From: an uncultured Planctomycetia bacterium
Lineage (GTDB): Bacteria; Planctomycetota; Phycisphaerae; FEN-1346; JAACEH01
Length of the DNA stretch: 64,000 nt
NCBI GenBank assembly: GCA_903929765.1
Contig: CAIYVX010000097.1
Span: forward strand, 16,556 to 80,555
Direction of reading: 5' to 3'
Part shown: positions 1 to 51,907 of the stretch, piece by piece
Position numbering within the stretch: position 1 is the stretch's first letter
Layout of the letters: every line of letters begins with the position of its first letter
The notes under the pieces: generated by a model
The model's input: the letters and a program-made list of their open reading frames with translations, nothing else
Database searches by the model: none
Told to the model about the DNA's origin: nothing
Program-made: the position numbers and the translations under genes

Positions 1-553
1 GAAACCTTGCTGCAGCACGATCTGTCGAAGCCGAAACTGCTGGCTTTGCCGTTGTTGCTTCTTCACCCCTCTTTCTTGGCGAGAGAGGGTCGGGTGAGGG
101 TGTCTTTGAATCTGTCCCCTGCCCCGCCGCAACTTCCATATTCTTCTCCCGGCACGCCTCCGCCAGCGCTCGCACCGCCTCCCGCAGCGGCAACTCCACC
201 TGCACCGCCGTCGCTCCGTCGCTATAGACTTGCGGCGGCGTCGCCCGAACCGCTCGACGAACCGCCCCGTACACCCGCGCCCGCGTGTCCGCGCCGCTCG
301 ACAGGAACTCACCCACGCGCTGCTCCGGCGTCACCTGGAGATCCTCCAGTGACCGGAAGAGCTGCGCATACGCCCGCGCCGACGCCTCCTGCACCGCCGG
401 ATCTATCCTGCTGCTGTTTTTCGTAGGGGCAGAACTTGTCTCTGCCCTGCGGTTGCTACTTGGAGCCGTTGCCGTTGGCGCACCAGTACCCGCCGTCGGG
501 GTCGTCATCGCCATCGCCCAACCCGCCGCGAGAACTATTAGCGCCGCTTTCAT
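1..553 (-). CDS. Secreted protein of unknown function, partial (runs off the left edge)
   Basis: Manual reverse translation, open to the window edge and absent from the ORF track: MKAALIVLAAGWAMAMTTPTAGTGAP...RIDPAVQEASARAYAQLFRSLEDLQVTPEQRVGEFLSSGADTRARVYGAVRRAV... Signal-peptide-like N-terminus; lies 22 bp downstream of a same-strand prepilin gene. Confidence 0.7.
   Translation of the reverse strand, partial: MKAALIVLAAGWAMAMTTPTAGTGAPTATAPSSNRRAETSSAPTKNSSRIDPAVQEASARAYAQLFRSLEDLQVTPEQRVGEFLSSGADTRARVYGAVRRAVRATPPQVYSDGATAVQVELPLREAVRALAEACREKNMEVAAGQGTDSKTPSPDPLSPRKRGEEATTAKPAVSASTDRAAARF
61..108. repeat. CCCTCTCCC/GGGAGAGGG-type palindromic repeat, divergent copy
   Basis: cttcacccctctttcttggcgagagagggtcgggtgagggtgtcttt, related to the copies at 1984, 6083, 10441 and 51762. 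Confidence 0.6.
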
Positions 554-575: not shown

Positions 576-1478
576 CTAGTTGTGCGAAAAGTTCATGATA
601 TCGTCCGACGTCCCGTCCGTTGCCCCGGCCGTGGTGGTCGGCGCCATCGTGGTCACTCCGGTCGACGAATTGTAGGTTGACTTCACATAGCCGAAAATCC
701 GGTCCGGCCCCGCGCTGATCAGAATATATGGCAACGTACACTGCAAGGTGATCCGCTGCCAACTCGGTCCGGCCACCAGGGTCGATCCCGTCGTCTGGTT
801 GAACGCATAATCCAGGTCGGCCGAGTCGAAGCCACCGGCCGGAACATTGCGGCCGTCGTTCTGGTTCATGCCGCGGCTCAGACGCAACGAATACTGGATC
901 GTTCCCTGAAAAAATCCCGCGCTACCGAAACCATCCTCGAAATAGTACATCGCACAGTCCGACGGAGAAGTACCAGACGGTATCGGATGGGGCGTATAAA
1001 TTATCTTGGTCAGCACTTCCTGCGCCGGCCAGTTGGCCGACACGCGCACAGCAGGCGTGCCGGGGCCTGAGTTCACGCTAGAGTCCGTCGCGCTCCAGCC
1101 GATCTGATTCGGCCCCATCAGAAAGTAAAACAGCAAGCCCCCGCCCAAAGGAGCTTGAGGATCGTTGGCATTGGCTGACATGGGCAAGTTGATGGTCAGG
1201 TAATGCAAGCCTCCAGAATTATCAGTCCACTGACTTGGGGTCAAAGTTGGATAGGACCAGGTTGTCGATGTTGACGCGTGGCTCGGCGGATAATCCCCGA
1301 ACGTCTGCTTGTATTGTTCGAGGCACTGTCCCAGCGTCCCGATTCGCGTCTCGGTGTCCTTGATCTTGAAGAGTATCGTTGCCGCGTTGATCGCCGGCAA
1401 CAGCATCCCGATCAGCACTCCGATGATCAGGATCACCAGCATGATCTCGATCAGCGTAAAACCGCTCTTGGCTTTCAT
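576..1478 (-). CDS. Prepilin/pseudopilin, GspG-like
   Basis: Start trimmed to MKAKSGFTLIEIMLVILIIGVLIGMLLPAIN (class III signal, GFTLIE). C-terminal SAGPDRIFGY...SDDIMNFSHN. Confidence 0.88.
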   Translation of the reverse strand: MKAKSGFTLIEIMLVILIIGVLIGMLLPAINAATILFKIKDTETRIGTLGQCLEQYKQTFGDYPPSHASTSTTWSYPTLTPSQWTDNSGGLHYLTINLPMSANANDPQAPLGGGLLFYFLMGPNQIGWSATDSSVNSGPGTPAVRVSANWPAQEVLTKIIYTPHPIPSGTSPSDCAMYYFEDGFGSAGFFQGTIQYSLRLSRGMNQNDGRNVPAGGFDSADLDYAFNQTTGSTLVAGPSWQRITLQCTLPYILISAGPDRIFGYVKSTYNSSTGVTTMAPTTTAGATDGTSDDIMNFSHN

Positions 1479-1541
1479 CTTCCTCGTCCTCCGCCCGGTT
1501 TCCTTTTGACGCCGAACCGTTCTCTCGTGATAATTATCCTC

Positions 1542-2690
1542 ATGAACGACGACCAGGTCAACTTTCCGCGACGCGTCACGCGCTCCGTTCGCGTCGGCCG
1601 GCTCACCCTCGGCTCCGGCTTTCCCGTCGCCGTCCAATCCATGACCACCACGCCCACCGCCGACGTCGACGCCACCGTCGCCCAGATCCGCCGACTCGCC
1701 GAAGCCGGGGCCGACCTCGTCCGCCTCGCCGTCCCCACCATGGCCGACGCCGAGGCCCTCGGTCGCATCCGCCGACAGGTCGACACCCCGCTCGTCGCCG
1801 ACATCCACTTCAACGCCCGCCTCGCTCTTGCCACGCTCGACCAGGGCGTCGACAAAATCCGCATCAACCCCGGCAACGTCCCCGCCGACGACGACCTCTT
1901 CCAGGTCATCGACGCCGCCAAAGCTCGCGGCGCCGCCATTCGCCTCGGCGTCAACTCCGGCTCCATCATGCCGCGTTCAAAAGACACCTCTCCCTCGGGA
2001 GAGGGTGGCCCGCAAGGGCCGGGCGAGGGGTTAACGCCGGAAACCATCCCCTCGCAACATTCGCCGCAACAAATCGCCGATCGCATGGTCAGCGAAGTTC
2101 TCCGTTACCTCGACCTCTTCCAGTCGCGCGGCTTCCGCGACCTCGTCCTTTCCCTCAAGGCCAGCGACGTTCCCACCACCATCGCCGCCTATCGCGCCGT
2201 CGCCGTCGCCTGCGACTGCCCCCTGCACCTCGGCATCACCGCCGCCGGACCGCGCGAGGAAGCCGTCCTCAAAAGCGCCCTGGGCATCGGCTCGCTCCTG
2301 GCCGAAGGTCTCGGCGACACCATCCGCGTCAGCATCACCGGCGATCCGCTCATCGAAGTCCAGACCGCCGTCCGCATGCTCGAAATACTCCACCTCCGCC
2401 CACTCGGCGGCGTCGAAGTCCTCTCCTGCCCCACCTGCGGACGCTGCCAGGTTGACCTCGCCCCGCTCGCCGAACGGCTCTACCTGGCCACCCGTTCCAT
2501 CCGTCGCCCCCTGCGCGTCGCCGTCATGGGCTGCGTCGTCAACGGACCCGGTGAAGCCCGCGAAGCCGACTTGGGGCTAGCCGCCGGAAAAGGCTTCGGA
2601 CTCCTTTTCCGTCACGGCCGGACCGGCGGCGAAAAAATCCCCGAAAACCAACTCTTCGACCGACTTATGGCCGAAATACAAAAACTCTAG
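1542..2690 (+). CDS. ispG: 4-hydroxy-3-methylbut-2-enyl diphosphate synthase (IspG/GcpE)
   Basis: MNDDQVNFPRRVTRSVRVGRLTLGSGFPVAVQSMTTTPTADVDATVAQI...LVADIHFNARLAL...KIRINPGN...; C-terminal CPTCGRCQVDL and VMGCVVNGPGEA Fe-S motifs. Confidence 0.95.
   Translation: MNDDQVNFPRRVTRSVRVGRLTLGSGFPVAVQSMTTTPTADVDATVAQIRRLAEAGADLVRLAVPTMADAEALGRIRRQVDTPLVADIHFNARLALATLDQGVDKIRINPGNVPADDDLFQVIDAAKARGAAIRLGVNSGSIMPRSKDTSPSGEGGPQGPGEGLTPETIPSQHSPQQIADRMVSEVLRYLDLFQSRGFRDLVLSLKASDVPTTIAAYRAVAVACDCPLHLGITAAGPREEAVLKSALGIGSLLAEGLGDTIRVSITGDPLIEVQTAVRMLEILHLRPLGGVEVLSCPTCGRCQVDLAPLAERLYLATRSIRRPLRVAVMGCVVNGPGEAREADLGLAAGKGFGLLFRHGRTGGEKIPENQLFDRLMAEIQKL
1984..2034. repeat. CCCTCTCCC/GGGAGAGGG-type palindromic repeat inside ispG
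   Basis: acacctctccctcgggagagggtggcccgcaagggccgggcgaggggtta. Confidence 0.8.
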
Positions 2691-3274
2691 TGCGTTATCT
2701 CCCGATCCGTCAATTGCAGAAACGCGCCCGTTACCCGGTTCAGCCGGTACTCCACCGTCTTCTCCGTTGATTCCGTCCCACTGATCGGTCCGATGTCCAG
2801 AACCAGATTCGCTGATTGGGTCTGTGGATGCACCGTCCCCGCCGAATTGAAAGCAATGCTGAAAGTCGGATAGGTCGCCGGAGGAGTCGGAGGATTCGCC
2901 AACATGGTCGACGACACCGCCTGGATCCCGTTGGGCAGGTCGATCGCATAGGAACCAGCCACCACCCCGAAGTTTCCACTCCCCGCTAAACTACCCGTTT
3001 GAATCTGCCCCAGGATCATCCGCGTGAACGGATGGACCGAGCCGTTACTTCCCGTGTACGGCGGCAGAAATCGCACCGACGTCTCCGTGTGGTACTGCAC
3101 CGCCATCTGCCGCGCCATCAGGATCATCGACTGCACCTGACTAGCCGCGTTATCCGTCTTCGACGCCCCCGACATCTGCGTCAACAGCGGCACCGCCGTC
3201 CCCGCCATCAGCACGATGATCGTGATCACCAGCATTAACTCGATCAGCGTAAAGCCGTCCGTCCGCTCTCGCAT
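2687..3274 (-). CDS. Prepilin-type protein (GspH/FimT-like)
   Basis: MRERTDGFTLIELMLVITIIVLMAGTAVPLLTQ; prepilin cleavage motif and hydrophobic helix. Confidence 0.82.
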   Translation of the reverse strand: MRERTDGFTLIELMLVITIIVLMAGTAVPLLTQMSGASKTDNAASQVQSMILMARQMAVQYHTETSVRFLPPYTGSNGSVHPFTRMILGQIQTGSLAGSGNFGVVAGSYAIDLPNGIQAVSSTMLANPPTPPATYPTFSIAFNSAGTVHPQTQSANLVLDIGPISGTESTEKTVEYRLNRVTGAFLQLTDREITH

Positions 3275-3290
3275 GGCCCTTCCCTCCGCA

Positions 3291-3893
3291 CTACTGTGAG
3301 TAGTTCCAGGTTCCGGTTGCCTGCAAATCCCGGAAGTTCGATATATTATCCGCATCCGGCCCGCTCGTCGGCAAAGGGGTCAAGGTCGTCCCATAGCCGG
3401 CAGAGGCCAGCCCGTCCGGCCCGCAGGAATAGAGGAACGGCATCCCACCATTGGCCTTCGCGCTATCTGACCCCAGGTCGAAAACCTTACCCCCGATCGG
3501 ATTCTTCCACGCATCTACAAAGTAATTCTGGCTCGTCGCCTGGTTCGTAGCCACCGCCCCCGCGGGCAGCGACGCCAAAGAACTCACCGTGCCGCTCTTA
3601 ATGCCGTTCTTCCCGCTTCCCGACAACGCCTGGCACAGCGCCGTCGAGACACTGATCGGATCGCTCCCCAATTGCGACTGTGGAGGATACTGCCCCCACT
3701 CGTCGTAATAGGTCACCAGCGCCGATTCTATCCCATCGATGATCTTCCGCGTCGACATCTTCTGTGATTCCAGGTTCGCGTTCGCCACGAACACCACCAG
3801 CGTCCCCAAAAGGAACAGGATGATCGACACCACCATGATCATCTCCAGCAGCGTAAAGCCCCGTGACGAAATCCTATGGTTCATTGCTTTCAT
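3291..3893 (-). CDS. Pseudopilin, GspG-like
   Basis: MKAMNHRISSRGFTLLEMIMVVSIILFLLGTLVVF...YYDEWGQYPPQ...; C-terminal SCGPDGLASAGYG...DADNISNFRDL. Confidence 0.85.
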   Translation of the reverse strand: MKAMNHRISSRGFTLLEMIMVVSIILFLLGTLVVFVANANLESQKMSTRKIIDGIESALVTYYDEWGQYPPQSQLGSDPISVSTALCQALSGSGKNGIKSGTVSSLASLPAGAVATNQATSQNYFVDAWKNPIGGKVFDLGSDSAKANGGMPFLYSCGPDGLASAGYGTTLTPLPTSGPDADNISNFRDLQATGTWNYSQ

Positions 3894-3995
3894 TCCCCGT
3901 CCCGCCGTTTATGCCCCCAGCACTGCCGGGGGATGCAGTTTCTTTTTCGGTCTCTTCTTTTTTTTGCCGTACCTGAAGACTGAGGACTTCTTTTC

Positions 3996-5018
3996 CTACC
4001 TGAAATTCGTAATGTCGTCGAAGTTTGCCGGGTTGAACGTCAGGTCCGGGAGATACCAGCCCTGCGAATAGTCATAGGCCCAGAACCCGAACAACTGGTC
4101 CGGCCCCGCCGACCAGATCACGTACGACGTCGGATTGTACAGCTTCTGGCCGTTCGTACCAATCGTGGTCCACTGGGCGTAGGTCTGGTTCGTCATCCCG
4201 GAATAGAACATGTAGTCAACTACTTCCCACCACACGTAGACTTTGGTCTCGAAGCTGTCGGGCGTGGTCGGCAGCCAAGCTCGAGTCATAACATCATGCA
4301 TCGGAGTCGCATTCGCCCCGTAGGAACCGCCGGAAACATCTACCCAGAATTCTTCGACCTCCCCGGGGTTGTAGCGGTCATGCGGCTGGATCGGCATGCT
4401 TAACTTCGGCCAAGTCGGAACCCCGTTCACATTCATTATCGCCGCAAAGTACACGATCGGCGTCCCGAACGCATCGACGAACGTCGGACGATAAAGATTA
4501 ATAGCATTCGTCCCTCCGCCGTAATTCCGATGCGACTTAAAAGCCTGTAAGCTACTGTTGCCCGCCTCCATCCAGGGACCGAAGTCCGCCGTCACCGAAC
4601 CATTCTGGTTACCAGGAGAGGCCTGTCTGCCGTCCCGGTTCACCCGCCAACCCATACCGGCCGGGCCCTGGAGGCAATAGGTCAGAATGCCCGGCGCCCC
4701 CATCCCACCCGACGGATCCCCCACCGGCTCCGCCGCCGTCCCGTACGGGCTGCCGCCCTGCCACCACCAGCCGTCCAGGTTCGTCGATGGCGGCTGCGGA
4801 AAGGTGGTCGGCGGATAGGCCCCGAACGCCGCCTTGTATTGCTGCACCCCCAGGTCCAGCATGTTCACCAGCCCCCGCGTCTGGTAAATCTTCACCTCCC
4901 GCACCACCCCGTTTATCGCCGGAATCAGCGTGAAGATCAGCAGGCTGATGATCAGCACCACCATCATCAGCTCCACCAGCGTAAAGCCCCGCCGAGTCTC
5001 TCTACTCTTCCTGTTCAT
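3996..5018 (-). CDS. Pseudopilin, GspG-like
   Basis: MNRKSRETRRGFTLVELMMVVLIISLLIFTLIPAING...AFGAYPPT...; C-terminal VIWSAGPDQLFGFW...FDDITNFR. Confidence 0.87.
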   Translation of the reverse strand: MNRKSRETRRGFTLVELMMVVLIISLLIFTLIPAINGVVREVKIYQTRGLVNMLDLGVQQYKAAFGAYPPTTFPQPPSTNLDGWWWQGGSPYGTAAEPVGDPSGGMGAPGILTYCLQGPAGMGWRVNRDGRQASPGNQNGSVTADFGPWMEAGNSSLQAFKSHRNYGGGTNAINLYRPTFVDAFGTPIVYFAAIMNVNGVPTWPKLSMPIQPHDRYNPGEVEEFWVDVSGGSYGANATPMHDVMTRAWLPTTPDSFETKVYVWWEVVDYMFYSGMTNQTYAQWTTIGTNGQKLYNPTSYVIWSAGPDQLFGFWAYDYSQGWYLPDLTFNPANFDDITNFR

Positions 5019-5114
5019 TTTTCCACTCCCGACCAGACTAAACCGTTGCTTTTGTTGTTATCAACTGCTCACCTGTTCTCCTGCTCTACTGTTCTCGGTC
5101 GCAACGGGACCGCC

Positions 5115-6053
5115 TCACGGCGTGAAGTTCATGATGTCGTCGCTGGCCCAACCCTTGCTCGGATCCGACGGCAGGCCGAACTCCCGGTCCACGCCCGCCG
5201 AAATCAGGATGTACGTCATCGCCCGCTGCGGATACCGCTGCGCCGCCGGCGTCGTCATGGTGATATCGCCTGCGCCCAGGTCGTTGGCGTTGGTTGACGA
5301 ATTTCTGGTCTTATCTATGTCCGTGATCTCATTCTCCCACTGTTGCTGCTTGGTAAAGGTGACCGACGAACCAGTGGTGGGATCCAATTTAGGCGGCGCA
5401 TTGCCCTGGCCCGGCCAGAACGGGGAATCGCTGGTATAAGAAGAGCCAGCATCGCAGTTATCTTCGTATCTGTAATAACTGTAGAGTCCCAGTGACCCGC
5501 CGATAGAGAGGGTCGATGTCGCCAGAAGTGTCGGAGGCGGGGTGGGCGCTCCATTTGTGTTTTGCGCCTGGCCCACCATCCACGACGCCCGGTAATACAA
5601 CATCGCCCGGTCGCCGCCCGGAATCCCGTCGTTGAAATACTGCGCCGTACCAAGATTAGGATTATTTGGCGTCGAGGTCCAATCCGCGCCGACGTTCATC
5701 GCCCCTTCCCAGTTAAACTCCACCGGAATGTTGTGGAGGGCGTTCGACCAGCCGTGACTTACTCCGTTGGAATCCGGCTTGCCTTTCAGATAATAGTACA
5801 GGCACTGCGCCCCATATTGCGGCGCGTTGTGATCCCACTTCTGGTTGCTCGGCGGATATACGCCAAACACGTTCTTGTACGCATCCAGCGCCGCCGACAG
5901 CGTATTCATCCGCTGCATCGCCACCACCACGCCCGTCGAGTTATTATGCACCGCCACCACCAGGATCGTCAGCAGCAGCAGAATGATCGAGATCACCAGC
6001 AGCAGTTCGATCAGCGTGAACCCGCCTCGTGAACCTTTCGCCCCTGCCCTCAT
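5115..6053 (-). CDS. Pseudopilin, GspG-like
   Basis: MRAGAKGSRGGFTLIELLLVISIILLLLTILVVAV...VFGVYPPS...; C-terminal YILISAGVDREFG...SDDIMNFTP. Confidence 0.87.
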   Translation of the reverse strand: MRAGAKGSRGGFTLIELLLVISIILLLLTILVVAVHNNSTGVVVAMQRMNTLSAALDAYKNVFGVYPPSNQKWDHNAPQYGAQCLYYYLKGKPDSNGVSHGWSNALHNIPVEFNWEGAMNVGADWTSTPNNPNLGTAQYFNDGIPGGDRAMLYYRASWMVGQAQNTNGAPTPPPTLLATSTLSIGGSLGLYSYYRYEDNCDAGSSYTSDSPFWPGQGNAPPKLDPTTGSSVTFTKQQQWENEITDIDKTRNSSTNANDLGAGDITMTTPAAQRYPQRAMTYILISAGVDREFGLPSDPSKGWASDDIMNFTP

Positions 6054-6082
6054 GGCCGATCCTCCTTTTCCTCTTGCCGCTT

Positions 6083-6222
6083 CACCCCTCTCCCCTGGGA
6101 GAGGGTGGCCCACCAGGGCCGGGTGAGGGGTTTTGCTCTTGACCTCATGGCGGCAAACAACGCCGCCATACCACCCACCGTTTTTCTTCTTTCTACTTTT
6201 TACTTTTACCTTTTTACCTTCT
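6083..6222. repeat. Composite three-part repeat between gspF-like and pseudopilin genes
   Basis: cacccctctcccctgggagagggtggcccaccagggccgggtgaggggtttt + catggcggcaaacaacgccgccataccaccc + T-rich tract tttctactttttacttttacctttttac. Confidence 0.8.
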
Positions 6223-6226
6223 TCGC

Positions 6227-7471
6227 TTACGACTTCACCGATTTAATCAGTTCCACCAGCGGCAGGAACAACGCCACCACGATTCCGCCCACGATCACGC
6301 CCAGCGTCACCACCATGATCGGCTCCAGCGCTGCCACCAGACCGCCCACCAGCACATCCACTTCCTCATCATAATTATCGGCGACCTTCGTCAGCATCTT
6401 GTCCAGATCGCCCGTCTCCTCGCCCACGTCGATCATATTCACCACGATCGCGTCGACCACCCCGCTCTGCTTCAGCGGCGCCGCAATGCTCTCGCCCTCG
6501 CGGATGCTGTCGTGCACCTTCGTCAAGGCCCGCGAAATCACCTCGTTGCCCACCGTGTCGCGGGTGATCTTCAACGCCTCCAGAATCGGCACGCCGGAGG
6601 CCACCAACGTCCCCAGCGTCCGCGTGAACCGCGAAACCGCGCTGCGGTTGACGATCCCGCTCACCAGCGGCAGGTGCAGCCAGAGCCAGTCCATCATGTA
6701 CCGCCCGCCCTCCGTCGCCTTCACCAGTCGCATCGCCAGGTACACCACAATCGGTATGCTCACAAACACGTACCAATACAGCAACGCAAAGTGGCTGATG
6801 TTGATCAGCATCCGCGTCGGCGCCGGCAACGTCGTATGGAAATCCTTGAAAATTTTCTCGAATTTCGGAATGATGAAGACCATGATCAGCGACACGATGC
6901 CCACCGCCACGCCGATCACCATCACCGGGTACACGAGCGCCCCCACCACGCGCCGCTTCAGGGCCAGCGACTTCTCCTTGAACTCCGCCAGACGCACCAG
7001 AATCTTGTCCAGCACGCCGCCCGCCTCGCCCGCCCGCACGATGTTCACATACAGCCGGTCGAACACTTTCCCGTGCTTCGCCATCGCCTCCGACAGCGTC
7101 GAGCCGGCCTCCACGTCCTCGATAATGTCCGACAGGGCGTTCTTCAGCACCCCGGGCTTCTGCTGTCCGTGCAGAATCCGCAGGCTCCGCAAAATCGGCA
7201 ACCCGGCGTCCTGCAGCGTGGAGAGTTGTCGCGTGAACAGCGTCAGGTTTTTCCCCGACACGCCGCCGAAGGCAATCGTCTTGCCCTTCTTCGGCGACTG
7301 GCCGGGCGACCGGCCTTTGCGCTGCTTCGTCGCCCCCTTTTCCCGGATGTCCGTCGGGAAAAAGTTCTTGGCCCGGATCTTCGCCACCGCCTCTTCCTGG
7401 CTCGCGGCCTCGATCTCCTCGCGAACTTCCTGGCCCTGTGCGTTCATCGCCTCATACTGGTACCGTGGCAT
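6227..7471 (-). CDS. Type II secretion/type IV pilus inner-membrane protein (GspF/PilC family)
   Basis: MPRYQYEAMNAQGQEVREEIEAASQEEAVAKIRAKNFFPTDI...LTLFTRQLSTLQDAGLPILRSLRIL...; duplicated GspF domain with C-terminal transmembrane segment. Confidence 0.93.
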   Translation of the reverse strand: MPRYQYEAMNAQGQEVREEIEAASQEEAVAKIRAKNFFPTDIREKGATKQRKGRSPGQSPKKGKTIAFGGVSGKNLTLFTRQLSTLQDAGLPILRSLRILHGQQKPGVLKNALSDIIEDVEAGSTLSEAMAKHGKVFDRLYVNIVRAGEAGGVLDKILVRLAEFKEKSLALKRRVVGALVYPVMVIGVAVGIVSLIMVFIIPKFEKIFKDFHTTLPAPTRMLINISHFALLYWYVFVSIPIVVYLAMRLVKATEGGRYMMDWLWLHLPLVSGIVNRSAVSRFTRTLGTLVASGVPILEALKITRDTVGNEVISRALTKVHDSIREGESIAAPLKQSGVVDAIVVNMIDVGEETGDLDKMLTKVADNYDEEVDVLVGGLVAALEPIMVVTLGVIVGGIVVALFLPLVELIKSVKS

Positions 7472-10410: not shown

Positions 10411-10440
10411 AACCCTTGCTCCCAATGCCGTTGTCATTAT

Positions 10441-10490
10441 CACCTCTCCCCGGGAGAGGACGGCCCCTTTGGGCCGGTGAGTGGTTTTGG
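10441..10490. repeat. CCCTCTCCC/GGGAGAGGG-type palindromic repeat upstream of pilT
   Basis: cacctctccccgggagaggacggcccctttgggccggtgagtggttttgg. Confidence 0.75.
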
Positions 10491-10672
10491 CTAGCCCTCA
10501 CGCAACGGTGAAATCTTCCTCTTCCACCGTCATTCTAGTATTTTCGCCTCGAATTCGTCAAATTTCACCTTCGCCTTGCCGCACGGTAAGACATGGTGCC
10601 ATGACCGGTTGTGGCACGGCGAGAAGGCGAACCATCTGGCAAAACAAACGTAACGTCTTTATTGTAAGGCAC

Positions 10673-14358: not shown

Positions 14359-17300
14359 ATGAAGAGGAACGTAACGTTGATGGTGATGTTTGTCGCGCTG
14401 TTGGCGCTGGCTGTGCCGGCGATGGCCCAGCCGGTGGTCACGCTGACCATTTCGAGCGGGTTCAACATGAACGCCTGGTGCAGCCCGGCCATGTACAACA
14501 ACTGCCAGGCGCAAAACAAGAGCCTGCCAACCTTGTACGGTGGGGAGTGGACCGGCTACTCGCTTAACCTGGCGAGCGATGGCAAAAACCCAGCCAGTCT
14601 GTGCGCCGACACGTTGAGCTCCGACGGCTTCTCTTTTTCGTACAGCGGCACCTATTTGTCCGGCATCCAGGGCACGCCGCGGAACGGCGTCCTGAACTCG
14701 ACCGCCTATCCCGGCGGCGTTTACAACATCGCCTCGTTCCTGGGCAACGCCTCGATGCCCGCCGACTCGATCGACTCGATGAGTAATGCCGCGGTCTTCG
14801 GCAATAATCGCAACAATGGCGTCTGGACCGTCGCGCAGTTGACGTTGCCGGTGACGAACCAGGGCTACTACTCGGACATCAACTTCGTCCTGACGGTCGC
14901 CAACGCCGAAGGCCTCCAGATCTGGGCCAAATATTCCGACTCGACCTCAGGCCTTCTCTACAACTGGCCGGCGGTTCAGGGCGGCGCCGGTCCGGGCATT
15001 GAGTCGCCCACCGGCTCGCTCACGGGCTACAACAACATCTATCGTTGCAGCTTGGATCTTTATGACGGCCGCGTCCCGCCGGCTTTTAGGGCCGACAACT
15101 TCGGGCCCAACCTCTACGAATTCTCCGCGCCCCTGACGCTGAATTCCGCCAAGCTGCTCAAGAGCATCGTGCTGGTCAATACTCTCGCTGCGGTCTGGTA
15201 TAACAACTATGCTCCCGAACTGGCCTTCTTCGCGGCCTCGGCCACGACCTCTGCCGGCCTGGACACGGTGACCGTCCAGACGTCCGCCAGCGGCAACATC
15301 ACCGTCGCCACCTGTTCCAACGGCATACCATTCCTGGTCAACGGCTATCCCGTCAACACGACGGTGAGCATCACCGTTGTGCCCATCGGGGGATACACCT
15401 TCGCCAATTGGGTAGTGACCAACGCGACCATTGCTGACTCCAGCGCTTCCAATACCACGATGCTCATCACCGGCCCCGTCACCCTGTCGGCCAGCTACAC
15501 CCCCGCCACCACGACTTACACCGTGACGGTCGTTGCTCCGACCGGCGGCGCGGTGACCGTATCTCCCGTTTATGTGACGAATGTGTACAACCCCAACTCT
15601 ACGCCGCAGATCACGGCTACGCCCGCCACCGGCTACTACTTCGTCAATTGGACCAGCACGATGGGCGGCTCGGTCAACACGAGCACTGTTTCGCAGGCCA
15701 ACCTGCCGGCCATGACCGACAACGTGACCGTGACGGCCAGCTTCGGCCAGGAAGATACCGTGACCATTAACCAGACCACCGGTGGCACTGTGACGGTGGC
15801 CGGGATTACCGCCAGCCAGTATTTCCTCCCCAGTGCGCAGCCGACGATCACGGCCTCGGCCAACGCGGGTTACTCCTTCGGCAGTTGGAATGTAACCAAT
15901 GGGACGCCCAATGGCAGCGGCTCGCAGACCACGTTGCAACTAAATGGTGCCAGCGTGACCGTGGCGGCGGTTTTCGTTACCGCCAGCTACACGCCGGCCA
16001 CACAGGTCAACGGCGGCAGCGGGGGGATCACCTTGACCCCACCGTCGTCAACCTACTCTTACGGCCAGGTCGTGGGCCTTTCGGCTTCCACGGCCACCCC
16101 CGGCTTTGTCTTCAATCATTGGGTGGTCACCGGGGCCTCGCAGTTGTCCAACTCGACCGCCGCGACCACTTCGCTGACCGTCTACGGCAACTTCACCCTG
16201 ACCGCGGTCTTCTACAACACGGGCGCGACGCCCATCAATATTTCCAGCGGGTTCAACATGGGCGCCATGGTCGGCCCGAAAGATTACAATCTCTGCGTCG
16301 CGCAAAACCATAAGATGTCCTACCTGTTCGGCCTGGAGCCGCAAGGCTATGCGAATGCCCTGGGCAACGGTTGGGTCTTTGAATGCGACAGTTCGACCGC
16401 CGAAACCGGGTCGAGCTATAGCTACGGGGGCGCATATTACACCGGCCTGCAAGGCCTGCCGGAGAACGGCGTGCTGACGTCCAACGTGGATGGCCGGACC
16501 TACTGCATTGCCTCGGTCAGCGGCAACGCCCTGTTGTCCGGCGACTGGACGGAGGCGGCCGTTCCGACGGGCAGCAACAATGCCAAATTCAACGCGGCGG
16601 TCCTCGCCCAGCCCTGGGGCTACGACGCGACCTACCCCCAGACCACGACCGCGACCGTGAGCCAGGGCTACTACACGGACATCAACTTCGTCTTCGCGGC
16701 CGGGCTTGGCAATGGCGCCGCCTACATGCAGATCTGGGCCATCTACTCCGACACCAGCTCGACCAAGCTCTACGACTTCGGTGATCCCGGCAGCGGCTAC
16801 GCCGGCCCGAGCCTCACGGATTCAAGGACTGGGGTGGGTGACTTCAAAACCCTCTATACCACCACCGGTTGTTGGTCCGACTACTCGGGCACCATCGGCG
16901 GTGGCGTAGCCACTCCGCTGTCGCTCTTTGAGTTTGCCGCGCCGCGGACCCTCCTTTCCACCAAGCCCTTGGCGAAAATCAAGATCGTCGACACCTCGGG
17001 CAGCACCAAGCCGTATCATTACCGCGAACTGGCGGTCTTCGGCGCCACGGGTACGCCCGCGACAGGAACGTACACCGTGACGGTCAACCAGACCACGGGC
17101 GGCACGGTGGCGGTCTCGCCGAGCCAGGCCGGATATCCCAACAACGCCCTGGCGACGGTCACGGCCACGGCCAGCCCGAACTATGTCTTCACCGGTTGGA
17201 CGGTGACGGGTGGAACCATCAGCCCGAGCGCGTCGCAGGCCACCCTGACCGTCCAGGGCCCCGTGACCCTGTCGGCAAACTTCGCTGCAGCTTATACCGT

Positions 17301-20300
17301 AACGGTTAACCAGACCACCGGCGGCACGGTCTCGGTCTCGCCGAGCAATGCGGCCTATCTCTACAACGACACGGCGACGGTCACGGCCTCGGCCAACCCG
17401 GGCTACGGCTTCGTCAGTTGGAGTGCGACCAACGGAACGGTCAGTCCCAGCACGTCGCAGGCCACCCTGACCGTGCAACTGGGCAACGTGACTCTGTCGG
17501 CCAGCTTCGGTGCGGTCAACTACACGGCCACAGAGCAGGGCAACCTTGGCGGGACGGTGACCTTGAACCCCGCTTCGTCCACCTACTCTTACGGCCAGGT
17601 CGTGGGAATCACGGCGGCCAATGCCAACCCCAACTTTACCTTCTCTTATTGGACCGCTACCGGCGGGACGGTGTCGAACTCGGCGGCTGCGACCACTTCG
17701 CTGACCGTCTACAGCAACTTCAACCTGACCGCGGTCTTCTACAACACGGGGGCGACGCCGCTCAATATTTCCAGCGGCTTCAACATGAACGCCTGGTGCA
17801 GCCCGGCCATGTACAACAACTGCGTGGCGCATTCCGACAACCTGCCGGACCTGTACATCGGGGAGACGAACGGCTACTCGCTGGACCTGTCGAGCAATGG
17901 CCAAAACCCATCTAGTTTTTGTGCCGTCACTACGGCCTCCGACAGCGCCGGCAACAGCTCGTACAACTCGTACAACGGCGGCTATTTGACCGGCAAGCAG
18001 GGCACGCCGAGGAACGGCGTCCTGACCTCGACCGTCGATGGTCGCGTCTATAACATCGCCTCGATCCAGGGTAACGCCACGGTGCCCGCCGACTCGATCG
18101 ACATGAAGAACGCCGTGGTCGTCGGCTATGTTAGCGCCTTTGGCTACGGCGGCGCCTGGAACCTTACGCAGGTGACGCTGCCCGTGACGGCGGGCTACTA
18201 CTCGGACATCAACTTCGTCCTGACGGCCGGGAACTACACCAATTCCTGCCAGATCTGGGCCGTCTACTCCGACACCACCTCGACCAAGCTCTACGACTGG
18301 GGGGCAACCAACGGTCCGACCGTTCAGGCGTCCAATCCTACGTCCGCCACCTTCCCGGGCTTCAACCCCGTCTTCATTAGCAGCATGAATCTTTATGACG
18401 GCGCCAAGTATCCGTATTTCCGGGCCGACGGCATCGGACCCACCCTCTACGAATTCTCCACGCCACTGACGCTGGTTTCCACCAAGCCGCTCACGGGCAT
18501 CGTGGTCAAATGTAACAGCGCCAACGGCAGCCCCGAACTGGCCATCTTCGGCGCCACCGCCTCTCCTGCGACAGGAACCAACACCGTGACGGTGAACCAG
18601 ACGACCGGCGGCTCGGTGTCCGTCTCGCCGAGCAAGGCCGGATATCCCAACAACGCCCAGGCGACGGCCACGGTCACAACCAGTCCGAACTATATCTTCA
18701 CCGGCTGGACCGTGACCGGCGGAACGCTCTCCGGCAGCACGGGCACCGACACCCTGACCGTCAACGGCAACGTCACCCTGTCGGCCAACTTCGCCGCAGC
18801 TTATACCGTGACGGTTAACCAGACCACCGGCGGTTCAGTGTCCGTCTCGCCGAGCAATTCGGCCTATCTCTACAATGCCACGGCGACGGTCACGGCCACA
18901 GCCAGCGCGAACTATTATTTTGTCGGTTGGAGCGTGACCGGCGGGACGATTCCTGGAAGCACTGGTACGGACACCCTGACCGTGCAGGGCAACGTGACTC
19001 TGGCGGCCAACTTCGCCCTGAAAGACACCGTGACGGTCAACCCGACCACCGGCGGCACAGTGACGGTAACGCCATCCGGTCCGTTCGTTCCCAACGCCAC
19101 GGCGACGATCACGGCCTCGGCCAACCCTGGCTACGTCTTCGGCAGTTGGAGCGTGGCCGGTGGAAGCATCGCGCCGAATTCAAGCACGAACCCGGCTACG
19201 TTGACCGTGCAGGGCAACGTGACGCTGTCGGCTAACTTCACCGCCATCAACTACTCGTCCACGACCCTGGCCAGCGGCTACGGGACGGCCCAGTTGACCT
19301 CCGCCGGTCCGTACACTTACGGCCAGGTCGTGGGCCTCACCGCTGCGGCCAGCACCGGCTGGTCGTTCAACCACTGGATCGTCACCGGAGCTTCGCAGTT
19401 GACCAACCCGACCTCCGCGACGACTTCTCTGACTGTGTACAACAACTTCACCCTGACCGCGGTCTTCTCTTCCGCGGCCCAGCCGATTGACATCTCCAGT
19501 GGTTTCAACATGGCCGCCATGGTCGGCCCGAAAATGGCTCAGCTCACCATCACGGACGGCCAGAGGATCGGGGGGATATTCGGCGATGAATCGAAGGGCT
19601 TTGCGATCAACCTGGGCGGCGGTGCGGGCAATAGCCTTATCTGCGACAGTTCGTCCAACGAGGTCGGGTCGAGCTACGGCGGCACTTATTTCACCGGCGT
19701 GCAAGGCCTGCCCGAGAACGGCGTGTTGACGTCCAATGTGGATGGCCGGACCTACTGCATGGCCTCGGTCAGCGGCAACGCCCTGTTGCCCGGCGACTGG
19801 ACGGAGGCGGCTGTTCCGACGGGCAGCAACAATGTCAAATACAACGCGGCGGTCATCGCCCAGCCCTGGGGCTACGACGTGACCTATCCACAGTCCGCGA
19901 CCATGAACGTGACCCCCGGCAACTATGCGGACATCAACTTCGTCTTCACGACCGGGTTCGACAATGGCGCTAGATACATGCAGATCTGGGCCATCTACTC
20001 CGACACCAGTTCGACCAAGCTCTACGACTTCGGCGATCCAGCCACCGGCACCGCCGGCCCGGTCATCTCGGATTCGAGGACGGGGGTGGGTGACTTCACC
20101 ACCCTCTACTCGGCCCACGTCGCGTGGAACAACCCCACGGGCCCCATAGGACAAGCCAGGGGCGATGTTGCTCCGCTGACGCTCTACGAGTTTACCGTGC
20201 CGCGGCTCCTGGACTCCAGCAAGACCTTGACAGCCATCGAGATCCTCGACCCCACGGGCAACACCAAGGTCTATCATACTCGTGAACTGGCCATCTTTGC

Positions 20301-22569
20301 CGCCTCGGTCAGTCCGGCCGGGACCGTGGAGCCGGAGTACACGCTTACCGTCAACCAGACCACCGGCGGCACGGTGACGGTCTCCCCGAACACCGCGACG
20401 TATTCACTCGGCAGCACGCCGACGATTACGGCCCAAGCCAGCACGGGCTACGCCTTCATCCAGTGGATTGTGAACTACGGGTCGGTCTCCGGCAACACCG
20501 GGACAGACACTCTGACCGTCCTGGGCCCCGTAACCTTGTCGGCCAGCTTCGCCCCGACTTATGTCGTGACGGTCAACCAGACGACCGGCGGCACGGTGAC
20601 CGTGACGCCGAGCCAGGCGGCCTATCTCTACAATGCCACGCCGACGATTGCGGCTTCGGCCAACCCGGGTTATGCCTTCAGCAGTTGGAGTGTGACCGGA
20701 CCGAGCACGCTCAGCAACTCGGCGGCGGTTTCGACCTCGTTGACCGTGACCGGCAATGGCACGTTGTCGGCGGTCTTCACTCCGATTAGTTACAACGTGG
20801 CCGGCCAGGCCAGTCCGACGGCGGGCGGCACCGTGAGTCCGGTCAGCACCACCGGCACTATCGGACAGGCGATTGCCCTCGGCCAGACCAACAACCCGGG
20901 CTATGCCTTCACGGGCTGGACCGTGGTCGGAGCATCGCTGAACAGCGACAGCACGGCGGTGATCATCGGCACGGCCAATGTGACGGTGACGGCCCACTAC
21001 ACGGCGAACAGCTACACGGTGACGGTGACGCAGCCGACCGGCGGCACGATTGGCGTCAGCAGCCCGACGGCCAGCTACAACCAGGTGCTCACCCTCAGCC
21101 AGACCCCGGCGAATGGCTACACGTTCGAAGGCTACTCGGTCGCCAGCGGTGGCGGAACGATCTCCGGCGGCAACCAGTTGACGGTGACCAGCAATGTGAC
21201 CGTGACGGGCAGCTACCTGCAGAACACCTACACCGGCAACGAGACCGGCGGGACGATCAACTTGTCGAGCAACGGCCCGTACACCTACGGCCAGGTCGTC
21301 GGCGTCCAGGCCTCGGTCGCCGATGGCTTCACCCTCAACCACTGGTCCGTGACTGGACCGAGCACGTTGAGCAGTTCGACCGCGACGACGACGTCGCTGA
21401 CCGTTTACGGCAGCTTCACCCTGACGGCTGACTTCACCGCGATTGTTTCCAACCTGACCGGCTCGGCCAACCCGGTTGGCGCCGGCACCGTGACCCTGGC
21501 CGGCCAGCCCACCGCGACCGGCACCATCGGCCAGACGATTGCCCTCAGCGCGACGCCCGTCGGCAGCTATACCTTCTCCTACTGGACGGTCCTCGATGAT
21601 AGCGGCTATAACTGGGCCTCGGTGGCCCTGAGCAATTCGACCTTGGCGACGGCCAACCTGACCATCCCGGACATGGGTTCGGTGAGCGACATGAACCTGA
21701 CCGTCATCGCCAACTTCGTGATGAGCAAATTCACCATCACCGTCAACCCGACGACCGGCGGCCAGGTGACGGTGTCGCCGAGCACAGAGACGTACAACCT
21801 CAGCGACACGCCGACCATCACGGCGGCGCCCAATGCGGGCTACAAGTTCGCCGGTTGGAACGTCACGGGCGGAACGATCACCCCGGATCTGAACACCAAC
21901 CCGGCCACCCTGACGGTCAACGGCAACGTGACGCTGTCGGCCAACTTTACGGCCGAGACGTTCAACCTCGCGGCGGAAACCTCGAACACCTGGGTCTACC
22001 AGAACACGCCGGCGACGACCTTTGACCGCCATGCCTTGACGCTGACGCTCAACGCGACGGACACCTGGAACAACACCACCTACACGATGACGGTGACCCA
22101 GGACGGAGCGAACGGCGTGGTCACGCCGACGCTGACGCAGACCAACAGTTCGACGACGGTGTTGGTGTCGCCGACGGGGACGGCGCCGGTGGTCTGGACC
22201 GTTCCGGCGGCGAACACGACGACCGCTTACCTGGTGGGTGGCCGCGTGCTGAATGGGCTGGTTAAGAGCGCCGGGAACGTGGCCCTGACCGGCAGTTGCA
22301 CGGTGACGGTAACCGTGGTCGGCGACGTGTCCGGCCCGGCGAACCCGGCGACAGCGAGCGTGACGGTCTTTGTCCGCAAGTTAGGCGACGTGGACGGCAA
22401 CGGCAAGATCCAGATTGCCGATGAAAACTACATTACGCAGCGCATCGCCACGGGCCAGACGCCGGTCGGGATCGATCCTGCGGCTCTGGATGTGGACGGC
22501 AACGGCAAGATTCAGGTGGCCGACGAGAACGTTATTACCGGCATCATCGCCGGCCAGACGCTCCCGTAA
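14359..22569 (+). CDS. Giant secreted multi-module protein: four ~270-aa ISSGFNM modules, multiple InlB B-repeat-like units, C-terminal dockerin type I
   Basis: Signal peptide MKRNVTLMVMFVALLALAVPAMA; repeated YTVTVNQTTGGTVTVSPS...ATVTASANPGYxFxxWSVTGGT...TLTVQGNVTLSANF units; C-terminal GDVDGNGKIQIADENYITQRI...LDVDGNGKIQVADENVITGII. Confidence 0.9.
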   Translation: MKRNVTLMVMFVALLALAVPAMAQPVVTLTISSGFNMNAWCSPAMYNNCQAQNKSLPTLYGGEWTGYSLNLASDGKNPASLCADTLSSDGFSFSYSGTYLSGIQGTPRNGVLNSTAYPGGVYNIASFLGNASMPADSIDSMSNAAVFGNNRNNGVWTVAQLTLPVTNQGYYSDINFVLTVANAEGLQIWAKYSDSTSGLLYNWPAVQGGAGPGIESPTGSLTGYNNIYRCSLDLYDGRVPPAFRADNFGPNLYEFSAPLTLNSAKLLKSIVLVNTLAAVWYNNYAPELAFFAASATTSAGLDTVTVQTSASGNITVATCSNGIPFLVNGYPVNTTVSITVVPIGGYTFANWVVTNATIADSSASNTTMLITGPVTLSASYTPATTTYTVTVVAPTGGAVTVSPVYVTNVYNPNSTPQITATPATGYYFVNWTSTMGGSVNTSTVSQANLPAMTDNVTVTASFGQEDTVTINQTTGGTVTVAGITASQYFLPSAQPTITASANAGYSFGSWNVTNGTPNGSGSQTTLQLNGASVTVAAVFVTASYTPATQVNGGSGGITLTPPSSTYSYGQVVGLSASTATPGFVFNHWVVTGASQLSNSTAATTSLTVYGNFTLTAVFYNTGATPINISSGFNMGAMVGPKDYNLCVAQNHKMSYLFGLEPQGYANALGNGWVFECDSSTAETGSSYSYGGAYYTGLQGLPENGVLTSNVDGRTYCIASVSGNALLSGDWTEAAVPTGSNNAKFNAAVLAQPWGYDATYPQTTTATVSQGYYTDINFVFAAGLGNGAAYMQIWAIYSDTSSTKLYDFGDPGSGYAGPSLTDSRTGVGDFKTLYTTTGCWSDYSGTIGGGVATPLSLFEFAAPRTLLSTKPLAKIKIVDTSGSTKPYHYRELAVFGATGTPATGTYTVTVNQTTGGTVAVSPSQAGYPNNALATVTATASPNYVFTGWTVTGGTISPSASQATLTVQGPVTLSANFAAAYTVTVNQTTGGTVSVSPSNAAYLYNDTATVTASANPGYGFVSWSATNGTVSPSTSQATLTVQLGNVTLSASFGAVNYTATEQGNLGGTVTLNPASSTYSYGQVVGITAANANPNFTFSYWTATGGTVSNSAAATTSLTVYSNFNLTAVFYNTGATPLNISSGFNMNAWCSPAMYNNCVAHSDNLPDLYIGETNGYSLDLSSNGQNPSSFCAVTTASDSAGNSSYNSYNGGYLTGKQGTPRNGVLTSTVDGRVYNIASIQGNATVPADSIDMKNAVVVGYVSAFGYGGAWNLTQVTLPVTAGYYSDINFVLTAGNYTNSCQIWAVYSDTTSTKLYDWGATNGPTVQASNPTSATFPGFNPVFISSMNLYDGAKYPYFRADGIGPTLYEFSTPLTLVSTKPLTGIVVKCNSANGSPELAIFGATASPATGTNTVTVNQTTGGSVSVSPSKAGYPNNAQATATVTTSPNYIFTGWTVTGGTLSGSTGTDTLTVNGNVTLSANFAAAYTVTVNQTTGGSVSVSPSNSAYLYNATATVTATASANYYFVGWSVTGGTIPGSTGTDTLTVQGNVTLAANFALKDTVTVNPTTGGTVTVTPSGPFVPNATATITASANPGYVFGSWSVAGGSIAPNSSTNPATLTVQGNVTLSANFTAINYSSTTLASGYGTAQLTSAGPYTYGQVVGLTAAASTGWSFNHWIVTGASQLTNPTSATTSLTVYNNFTLTAVFSSAAQPIDISSGFNMAAMVGPKMAQLTITDGQRIGGIFGDESKGFAINLGGGAGNSLICDSSSNEVGSSYGGTYFTGVQGLPENGVLTSNVDGRTYCMASVSGNALLPGDWTEAAVPTGSNNVKYNAAVIAQPWGYDVTYPQSATMNVTPGNYADINFVFTTGFDNGARYMQIWAIYSDTSSTKLYDFGDPATGTAGPVISDSRTGVGDFTTLYSAHVAWNNPTGPIGQARGDVAPLTLYEFTVPRLLDSSKTLTAIEILDPTGNTKVYHTRELAIFAASVSPAGTVEPEYTLTVNQTTGGTVTVSPNTATYSLGSTPTITAQASTGYAFIQWIVNYGSVSGNTGTDTLTVLGPVTLSASFAPTYVVTVNQTTGGTVTVTPSQAAYLYNATPTIAASANPGYAFSSWSVTGPSTLSNSAAVSTSLTVTGNGTLSAVFTPISYNVAGQASPTAGGTVSPVSTTGTIGQAIALGQTNNPGYAFTGWTVVGASLNSDSTAVIIGTANVTVTAHYTANSYTVTVTQPTGGTIGVSSPTASYNQVLTLSQTPANGYTFEGYSVASGGGTISGGNQLTVTSNVTVTGSYLQNTYTGNETGGTINLSSNGPYTYGQVVGVQASVADGFTLNHWSVTGPSTLSSSTATTTSLTVYGSFTLTADFTAIVSNLTGSANPVGAGTVTLAGQPTATGTIGQTIALSATPVGSYTFSYWTVLDDSGYNWASVALSNSTLATANLTIPDMGSVSDMNLTVIANFVMSKFTITVNPTTGGQVTVSPSTETYNLSDTPTITAAPNAGYKFAGWNVTGGTITPDLNTNPATLTVNGNVTLSANFTAETFNLAAETSNTWVYQNTPATTFDRHALTLTLNATDTWNNTTYTMTVTQDGANGVVTPTLTQTNSSTTVLVSPTGTAPVVWTVPAANTTTAYLVGGRVLNGLVKSAGNVALTGSCTVTVTVVGDVSGPANPATASVTVFVRKLGDVDGNGKIQIADENYITQRIATGQTPVGIDPAALDVDGNGKIQVADENVITGIIAGQTLP

Positions 22570-24379: not shown

Positions 24380-24410
24380 CATGGCGGCAAACAACGCCGC
24401 CAGGCCACCC
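24380..24410. repeat. Isolated second-part element of the composite repeat, after pstB
   Basis: catggcggcaaacaacgccgccaggccaccc; near-identical to 6146-6178 and 51828-51857. Confidence 0.75.
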
Positions 24411-24420
24411 GCAATGACTC

Positions 24421-25287
24421 TTACCCGAAGCGTCCCGTGATGTAGGCCTCGGTCTTTTCCTGGCGCGGCTTGGTGAAAATCTCCTTGGTCGGCCCGAACT
24501 CGATCAGTTCGCCCTCGTAGAAGAAGGCGGTCAGTTCCGAAACCCGGGCCGCCTGCTGCATGTTATGTGTGACGATAATAATTGTATATTGTCCGCTCAA
24601 CTCGTCGATCAATTCCTCGACCCGGGCCGTCGAGCGCGGGTCCAGGGCCGAGGCCGGCTCGTCCATCAGTAGCACCTCGGGGTCGACCGCCAAAGCCCGG
24701 GCGATGCAGAGCCGCTGCTGCTGGCCGCCCGAAAGCCGCAGGGCGTTATCGTGCTGGCGGTCCTTGACCTCGTCCCACAGGCCGGCCCGGGACAGGCTTT
24801 GTTCGACGATTTCGGACAAGTGCGTCCTGCTGGAAATACCGTGAATGCGCGGCCCGTAGGCCACGTTGTCGAAGATCGACTTCGGAAACGGGTTGGGCTT
24901 CTGGAAGACCATGCCGACCTTGCGCCGCAAGGCGACCACGTCCAACTGCGGCACATAGAGATCCTGGCCGTCCAGGGCCAGCCGCCCCTGGACCGTGCAG
25001 CCGGGAATCAGGTCGTTCATGCGGTTGATGGCCCGCAGAAAGGTGCTTTTGCCGCAACCGCTGGGACCGATGATGGCCGTCACGCGACCCGGTGGAATGT
25101 TCATGGTCACGCTCTTAACGGCGGGTCGCCCGCCATAAAGAACGTGGAACCCTTCGGCGGCAACGTGCGATACTTCGCCGGCCACCGCAGGCGTCTGAGG
25201 CGTCTCTGGTGATCGACTGGTTGGGCGAGTCGTTGGCACGGACGTAGTCATTTTTTTTGGCCTTTCGGCGACAGCGGAACTTGCCAT
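24421..25287 (-). CDS. pstB: Phosphate ABC transporter ATP-binding protein PstB
   Basis: [25 protein letters not shown]...[27 protein letters not shown]...[33 protein letters not shown]. Confidence 0.97.
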
Positions 25288-51736: not shown

Positions 51737-51761
51737 TCCACTCCTTTTGATGTTTCTTCTT

Positions 51762-51907
51762 CACCCCTCTCCCTTGGGAGAGGGTGGCCCTTTTTAGGGC
51801 TGGGTGAGGGGTTTCGCTCTCGACCTCATGGCGGCAAACCACGCCGCCAGGCCACCCACCGTCGCTCCTACTTTCTACTTTTTACTATTACCTTTTAACT
51901 TTTTACT
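51762..51907. repeat. Composite three-part repeat between hydB::gltD and hydA
   Basis: cacccctctcccttgggagagggtggccctttttagggctgggtgaggggttt + catggcggcaaaccacgccgccaggccaccc + T-rich tract ctttctactttttactattaccttttaactttttac. Confidence 0.8.

Follow-up and report, generated by a model that had tools for sequence, protein, structure and literature searches.

Palindromic repeats that lie in frame within proteins are already known. The Rickettsia palindromic elements (RPEs), known from Rickettsia and Wolbachia, are repeats of 100-150 bp that lie in pre-existing genes without breaking the frame and encode solvent-exposed segments, and their hosts include essential genes, among them those for tRNA synthetases (PMC3767692). 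Intragenic REPs of the GTAG/CGTC superfamilies occur in several phyla, for example in Opitutus terrae and Thauera; these REPs are mostly intergenic, and a minority are found in frame as 20-30 residues, many of them in DNA repair genes (PMC3733652). In the REP/RAYT (TnpA-REP) systems, high-copy palindromes are thought to be mobilised by HUH transposases (PMC8266576). The colonisation of proteins in frame by mobile repeats, which is best known from Rickettsia, has been proposed as a source of new protein segments.

The window analysed here, a stretch of 64,000 nucleotides from the genome of an uncultured Planctomycetia bacterium, contains the ispG gene, and comparison with relatives makes it highly probable that a palindromic repeat has been inserted in frame in this gene and is read through. 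Like RPEs, the ispG-type repeat is an in-frame palindrome found in pre-existing, essential genes, and in this behaviour the resemblance to RPEs claimed in the initial annotation holds. The resemblance probably does not extend to the sequence: unlike the RPEs of 100-150 bp, the element is ~60 nt long and comes from a distant phylum, and its sequence is taken to be a different one. Like the GTAG/CGTC REPs, it is a short palindrome with an in-frame minority of copies and it hits repair genes (here addA and addB-like genes), but the consensus of its main form carries no GTAG/CGTC tag at the foot of the palindrome, and its sequence differs. Of the 109 copies, 21 have GTAG close to one end, which we tentatively attribute to GGGTAGGG, an internal sequence of the short form. 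Because the main form is without tags, the repeat was set outside the GTAG/CGTC REPs and, being placed outside the RPE group as well, was filed as a new family. It is dispersed and high-copy, with in-frame copies inside genes that are missing from orthologues; these are features of in-frame protein-coding palindromic repeats. A literature search with the repeat sequence returned no relevant match.

The repeat copy in ispG

The ispG reading frame has zero internal stops, and its product scored 400.9 bits against NF001540 (cut-off 345) and 408 bits against Pfam GcpE, both over the full length. A genome search gave this one full-length IspG match and no second copy, and IspH is also encoded in the genome. 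The cluster-binding motifs SCPTCGR and MGCVVNGPGEA are retained. The stop-free frame and the full-length match agree with the in-frame read-through proposed in the initial annotation. The repeat copy lies in the sole stop-free sense frame of the repeat, and its predicted fold is an outer stem enclosing two hairpins (Table 1).

Repeat copies were located with nhmmer. Its profile was made from 57 seeds, exact copies (the ispG copy among them) taken from 1.11 Mb of the genome, and the best match of this profile in reversed sequence had E=1.8. The profile replaced a looser regular-expression search for the repeat, which had matched almost as often in shuffled and reversed controls. The profile matched the copies reported earlier at 6083, 10441 and 51762 together with the one in ispG, and also matched 58-102, which is the second intragenic copy in the window.

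Table 1. Positions of ispG, its insert and the repeat copies in the window.
Feature	Position	Strand	Evidence or remark
ispG (gcpE), 382 aa	1542..2690	+	NCBIfam and Pfam full-length matches; sole genome copy; intact except for the insert
Palindromic repeat copy in ispG, main subfamily, sense, read as KDTSPSGEGGPQGPGEGLTP	1981..2038	+	nhmmer E=1.2e-14 (copy among the profile seeds)
60-nt (20-codon) segment missing from the nearest relative, G001	~1983..2042 (ends approximate, flanks diverged)	+	Protein and DNA comparison
First hairpin of the ispG copy, CCTCTCCC / GGGAGAGG	1987..2004	+	From sequence; DNA fold -14 kcal/mol, z = -2.2
Second hairpin of the ispG copy, GGCCC / GGGCC; arm variable among copies	2007..2020	+	Sequence and fold
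Intergenic repeat copy	6079..6135	+	nhmmer E=3.4e-16
Diverged intergenic repeat copy	10436..10493	+	nhmmer E=3e-6
Intergenic repeat copy	51756..51815	+	nhmmer E=4.5e-15
Short-subfamily copy, antisense in a called gene (minus strand, off the window's left end, to ~394)	58..102	+	nhmmer E=7e-4; gene call

The nearest relative, genome G001 of the same family, carries the repeat family and has an empty site in IspG. Its IspG reads GVNSGSVMPRDRDDARQHAPQEIA at the loop, while the present IspG reads GVNSGSIMPRSKDTSPSGEGGPQGPGEGLTPETIPSQHSPQQIA, a net gain here of 60 nt or 20 residues. The empty site supports the earlier view that the segment was acquired, but the 35-40 extra residues first estimated were too many: the loop is 20 residues longer than in the closest relative, and 24 residues longer than in the solved IspGs 3noy and 4mwa. 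Because loop length is naturally variable in the class, with several repeat-free relatives exceeding the nearest ones, some of the added residues may be native. No close relative that lacks the repeat family was found to share the loop residues, and nothing pointed to a frameshift or misassembly, since both halves of ispG are collinear and in frame with the IspG family profiles and with G001. The IspGs of several genomes of the same class are 71-76% identical to those of named Planctomycetota, which makes a placement of the genome in this phylum probable.

The IspG loop of genome G004, which belongs to another family of the same order, contains a different palindromic repeat, AAAGCCCCACCTTGAGCGNAGCGAAAGGTGGGGA (L002:1080-1106). 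The repeat's core was found five times in G004 and not at all in the present genome (G000) or G001, and the insert is missing from IspG in four other genomes of G004's family. Since the core is absent from G000 and G001, the same IspG loop has, on this sequence comparison, been entered by two unrelated palindromes in two families, and the second invasion is independent.

An AlphaFold model of the present IspG (39 sequences) had a mean pLDDT of 90.1 and agreed with the solved IspG structures. The only stretches of at least three residues with pLDDT below 50 were residues 146-150 and 152-165, which are the insert. Because of these low values, the inserted ~20 residues probably form a disordered loop. 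The model predicts that the IspG fold is kept despite the insert, a prediction about fold and not about activity.

The repeat family and its copies inside genes

A strict pattern of the repeat, whose consensus is roughly ttcaCCCCTCtCCCttGGGAGAGGGTGGCCCttcAGGGCCGGGTGAGGGGTTgAGGCC, found 274 copies on both strands of the 3.83 Mb genome (a repeat-rich draft in 116 contigs) and 0 in the backwards control. There were 21 strict copies in G001 and 0 to 66 in the other genomes sampled from the class. Copies are ~45-65 nt in size, the net insert in ispG being 60 nt, and fall into two subfamilies, a main one, whose second hairpin is GC-rich and variable, and a short one that has no second hairpin. A different hairpin repeat, CATGGCGGCAAAC.ACGCCGCC, lies at window positions 6146-6190, 24380-24424 and 51827-51871, and two of its three copies follow a copy of the ispG-type repeat.

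Copies inside genes were counted in a sample of 1.11 Mb, in which a self-trained hexamer model called 925 genes (87% coding) and nhmmer matches at E<1e-3 gave 109 copies. In this sample, some stretches of which were picked for containing in-frame matches, 72 copies were intergenic, 36 lay within called genes (one of them in a doubtful 70-residue ORF) and 1 lay across a gene end; on contigs not picked in this way, 9 of 36 copies were intragenic, the ispG copy included. The counts indicate that the copies are depleted in coding DNA, yet the intragenic ones keep the frame. All 36 intragenic copies are in stop-free frames, and the main-form sense copies among them use the single open sense frame only. 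A frame-preserving core length was found in 29 of 30 scorable genic copies vs 23 of 49 intergenic ones (p=2e-6), and the stop-making TCA was missing in 7 of 7 antisense main-form genic copies (p=3e-4). Both statistics are partly circular, since an insert that broke a gene would keep that gene from being called as a single one. These frame tests show what survives.

A Pfam domain spans the insert in a molybdopterin oxidoreductase, a P-type ATPase, a TauE exporter, cytochrome b, ValS and an AddB-like nuclease, and further hosts are an asparagine synthase, AddA, an M16 peptidase and a MiaB-like enzyme. Several repeat copies each are present in the AddA-like and AddB-like genes; in one neighbouring addB-like/addA-like pair (G000 C86, L050:166-5549) the two genes together hold seven in-frame copies. 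AddA of G001 is without most of the repeat-bearing regions, and the G001 sites are empty for valS and addA as for ispG (three loci compared). It appears from these comparisons that mobile DNA contributes pieces of host proteins, with ispG among dozens of genes. Some inserts are longer composites of ~60 residues common to several genes. Composite in-frame inserts of this length, MAAAVCRHESQTPDE...HPSPLGEGGP, were seen in several long open frames (L201, L202, L203, L204).

A transposase segment within valS

The sole complete valyl-tRNA synthetase gene of the genome, valS (G000 C82:71181-75023, + strand; L087:11181-15023), encodes a protein whose alignment to its relatives breaks into three blocks (residues 5-225, 491-666 and 709-1281); in G001 the three blocks are contiguous. 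The first gap (~226-490, ~265 residues) matched a REP-associated tyrosine transposase (RAYT) with E=3e-19 and a score of 69 bits, which is less than the curated threshold of 80, and contains the HUH motif MPNHIHAVL. This RAYT is flanked on both sides by another palindrome family, CACGGGCAAGATGCCCGTG and variants, and the second gap holds an ispG-type repeat (residues 669-689). The valS frame, with the RAYT cassette included, has no stop, and the ~265-residue segment is judged to sit in a hairpin loop of the ValS editing domain. No report of such an arrangement was found in the mostly open-access literature searched.

There are eight Y1_Tnp loci in the genome. In the flanks examined, the ispG-type repeat was seen only at the valS locus, at a distance of ~540 nt and not flanking, and none of the loci examined had a RAYT directly flanked by the ispG-type repeat. 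Like the REP/RAYT systems, with their mostly intergenic palindromes of 20-50 nt, the repeat is a high-copy palindrome, mostly intergenic in the sample (72/109), in a genome that encodes RAYT-type proteins; unlike them, it was not seen to flank a RAYT in the loci examined, and the RAYT in valS is flanked by the other palindrome family. We suggest only tentatively, as a possible reading that we do not favour, that selfish palindromes, and even the complete REP-RAYT-REP cassette in valS, use essential genes as safe harbours in this lineage. If this is true, a frameshift or nonsense mutation that destroyed the transposase in valS would also kill the host, and lying in frame within valS would give a selfish transposase gene a new route to persistence.

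Origin and persistence of the insert

We propose that, in this lineage, a REP-like palindromic element of ~60 nt entered ispG where the gene encodes a surface loop. The insert may have persisted because it is divisible by three in length and can be read without a stop in one sense frame. The ribosome would read the element as ~20 Pro/Gly/Ser/Glu-rich, probably disordered residues, around which IspG would retain its fold and catalytic motifs. Sequence comparison established the identity of the repeat, the open frame, the empty site in G001, the intact IspG and dozens of other in-frame genic copies, and we infer that the inserted segment is actually translated and that the insert is neutral. The element would be selfish and non-autonomous, most likely copied by an HUH transposase (RAYT/IS200-like) that uses single-stranded DNA hairpins as its substrate, with frame-breaking insertions removed by purifying selection. 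This mode of copying is suggested by the likeness to REP/RAYT systems (PMC8266576) and by the RAYT-type genes in the genome, and we regard mobilisation of the ispG-type repeat by a RAYT as an even call.

It is very unlikely that the element is left untranslated, either because the ribosome hops the hairpin or because the segment is cut from the RNA or the protein. The fold has a strong hairpin, and hairpin-linked bypassing is known elsewhere, but an untranslated insert would need neither a stop-free frame nor a length that is a multiple of three, and the genic copies show both. Furthermore, 0 of 6 copies between close same-strand genes split one gene; when the sequences were read by eye, the genes on the two sides appeared distinct. 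That the insert is an assembly artefact or a sequencing error is extremely improbable even in such a repeat-rich draft, since the collinearity of the two ispG halves with the IspG profiles and G001, in frame, argues against it and the same pattern recurs across dozens of independent genes. The variable loop length of the relatives would fit a native low-complexity expansion that resembles the repeat by chance, but the chance of this is practically nil: the hairpin arms and flanks match the repeat family at E=1.2e-14, against 1.8 for the best reversed match, and this DNA match refutes it.

Adoption of the insert for a function, for example as a regulatory mRNA hairpin or as an interaction loop of IspG, is also unlikely. 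The entry of two unrelated palindromes into one IspG loop in two families would be consistent with such a function, but a naturally variable loop explains the coincidence of site, the inserted residues are modelled as disordered, and the ispG-type repeat is also present in many unrelated proteins. The simplest account is that the insert is neutrally tolerated in a loop that is variable and probably disordered. With dozens of hosts, empty sites in G001 and a second invasion of the IspG loop, the family makes it possible to ask which protein loops accept insertions and at what rate colonisation proceeds.

Elsewhere in the window, a large internally repeated region at ~14400-22000, with spacings of 222 nt and ~1500 nt, perhaps encodes a giant repeat protein. 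Around ispG, at window positions 576-7471 (minus strand), there is a run of genes with a GFTLIE-type pseudopilin N-terminus, followed by one for a secretion-type membrane protein.
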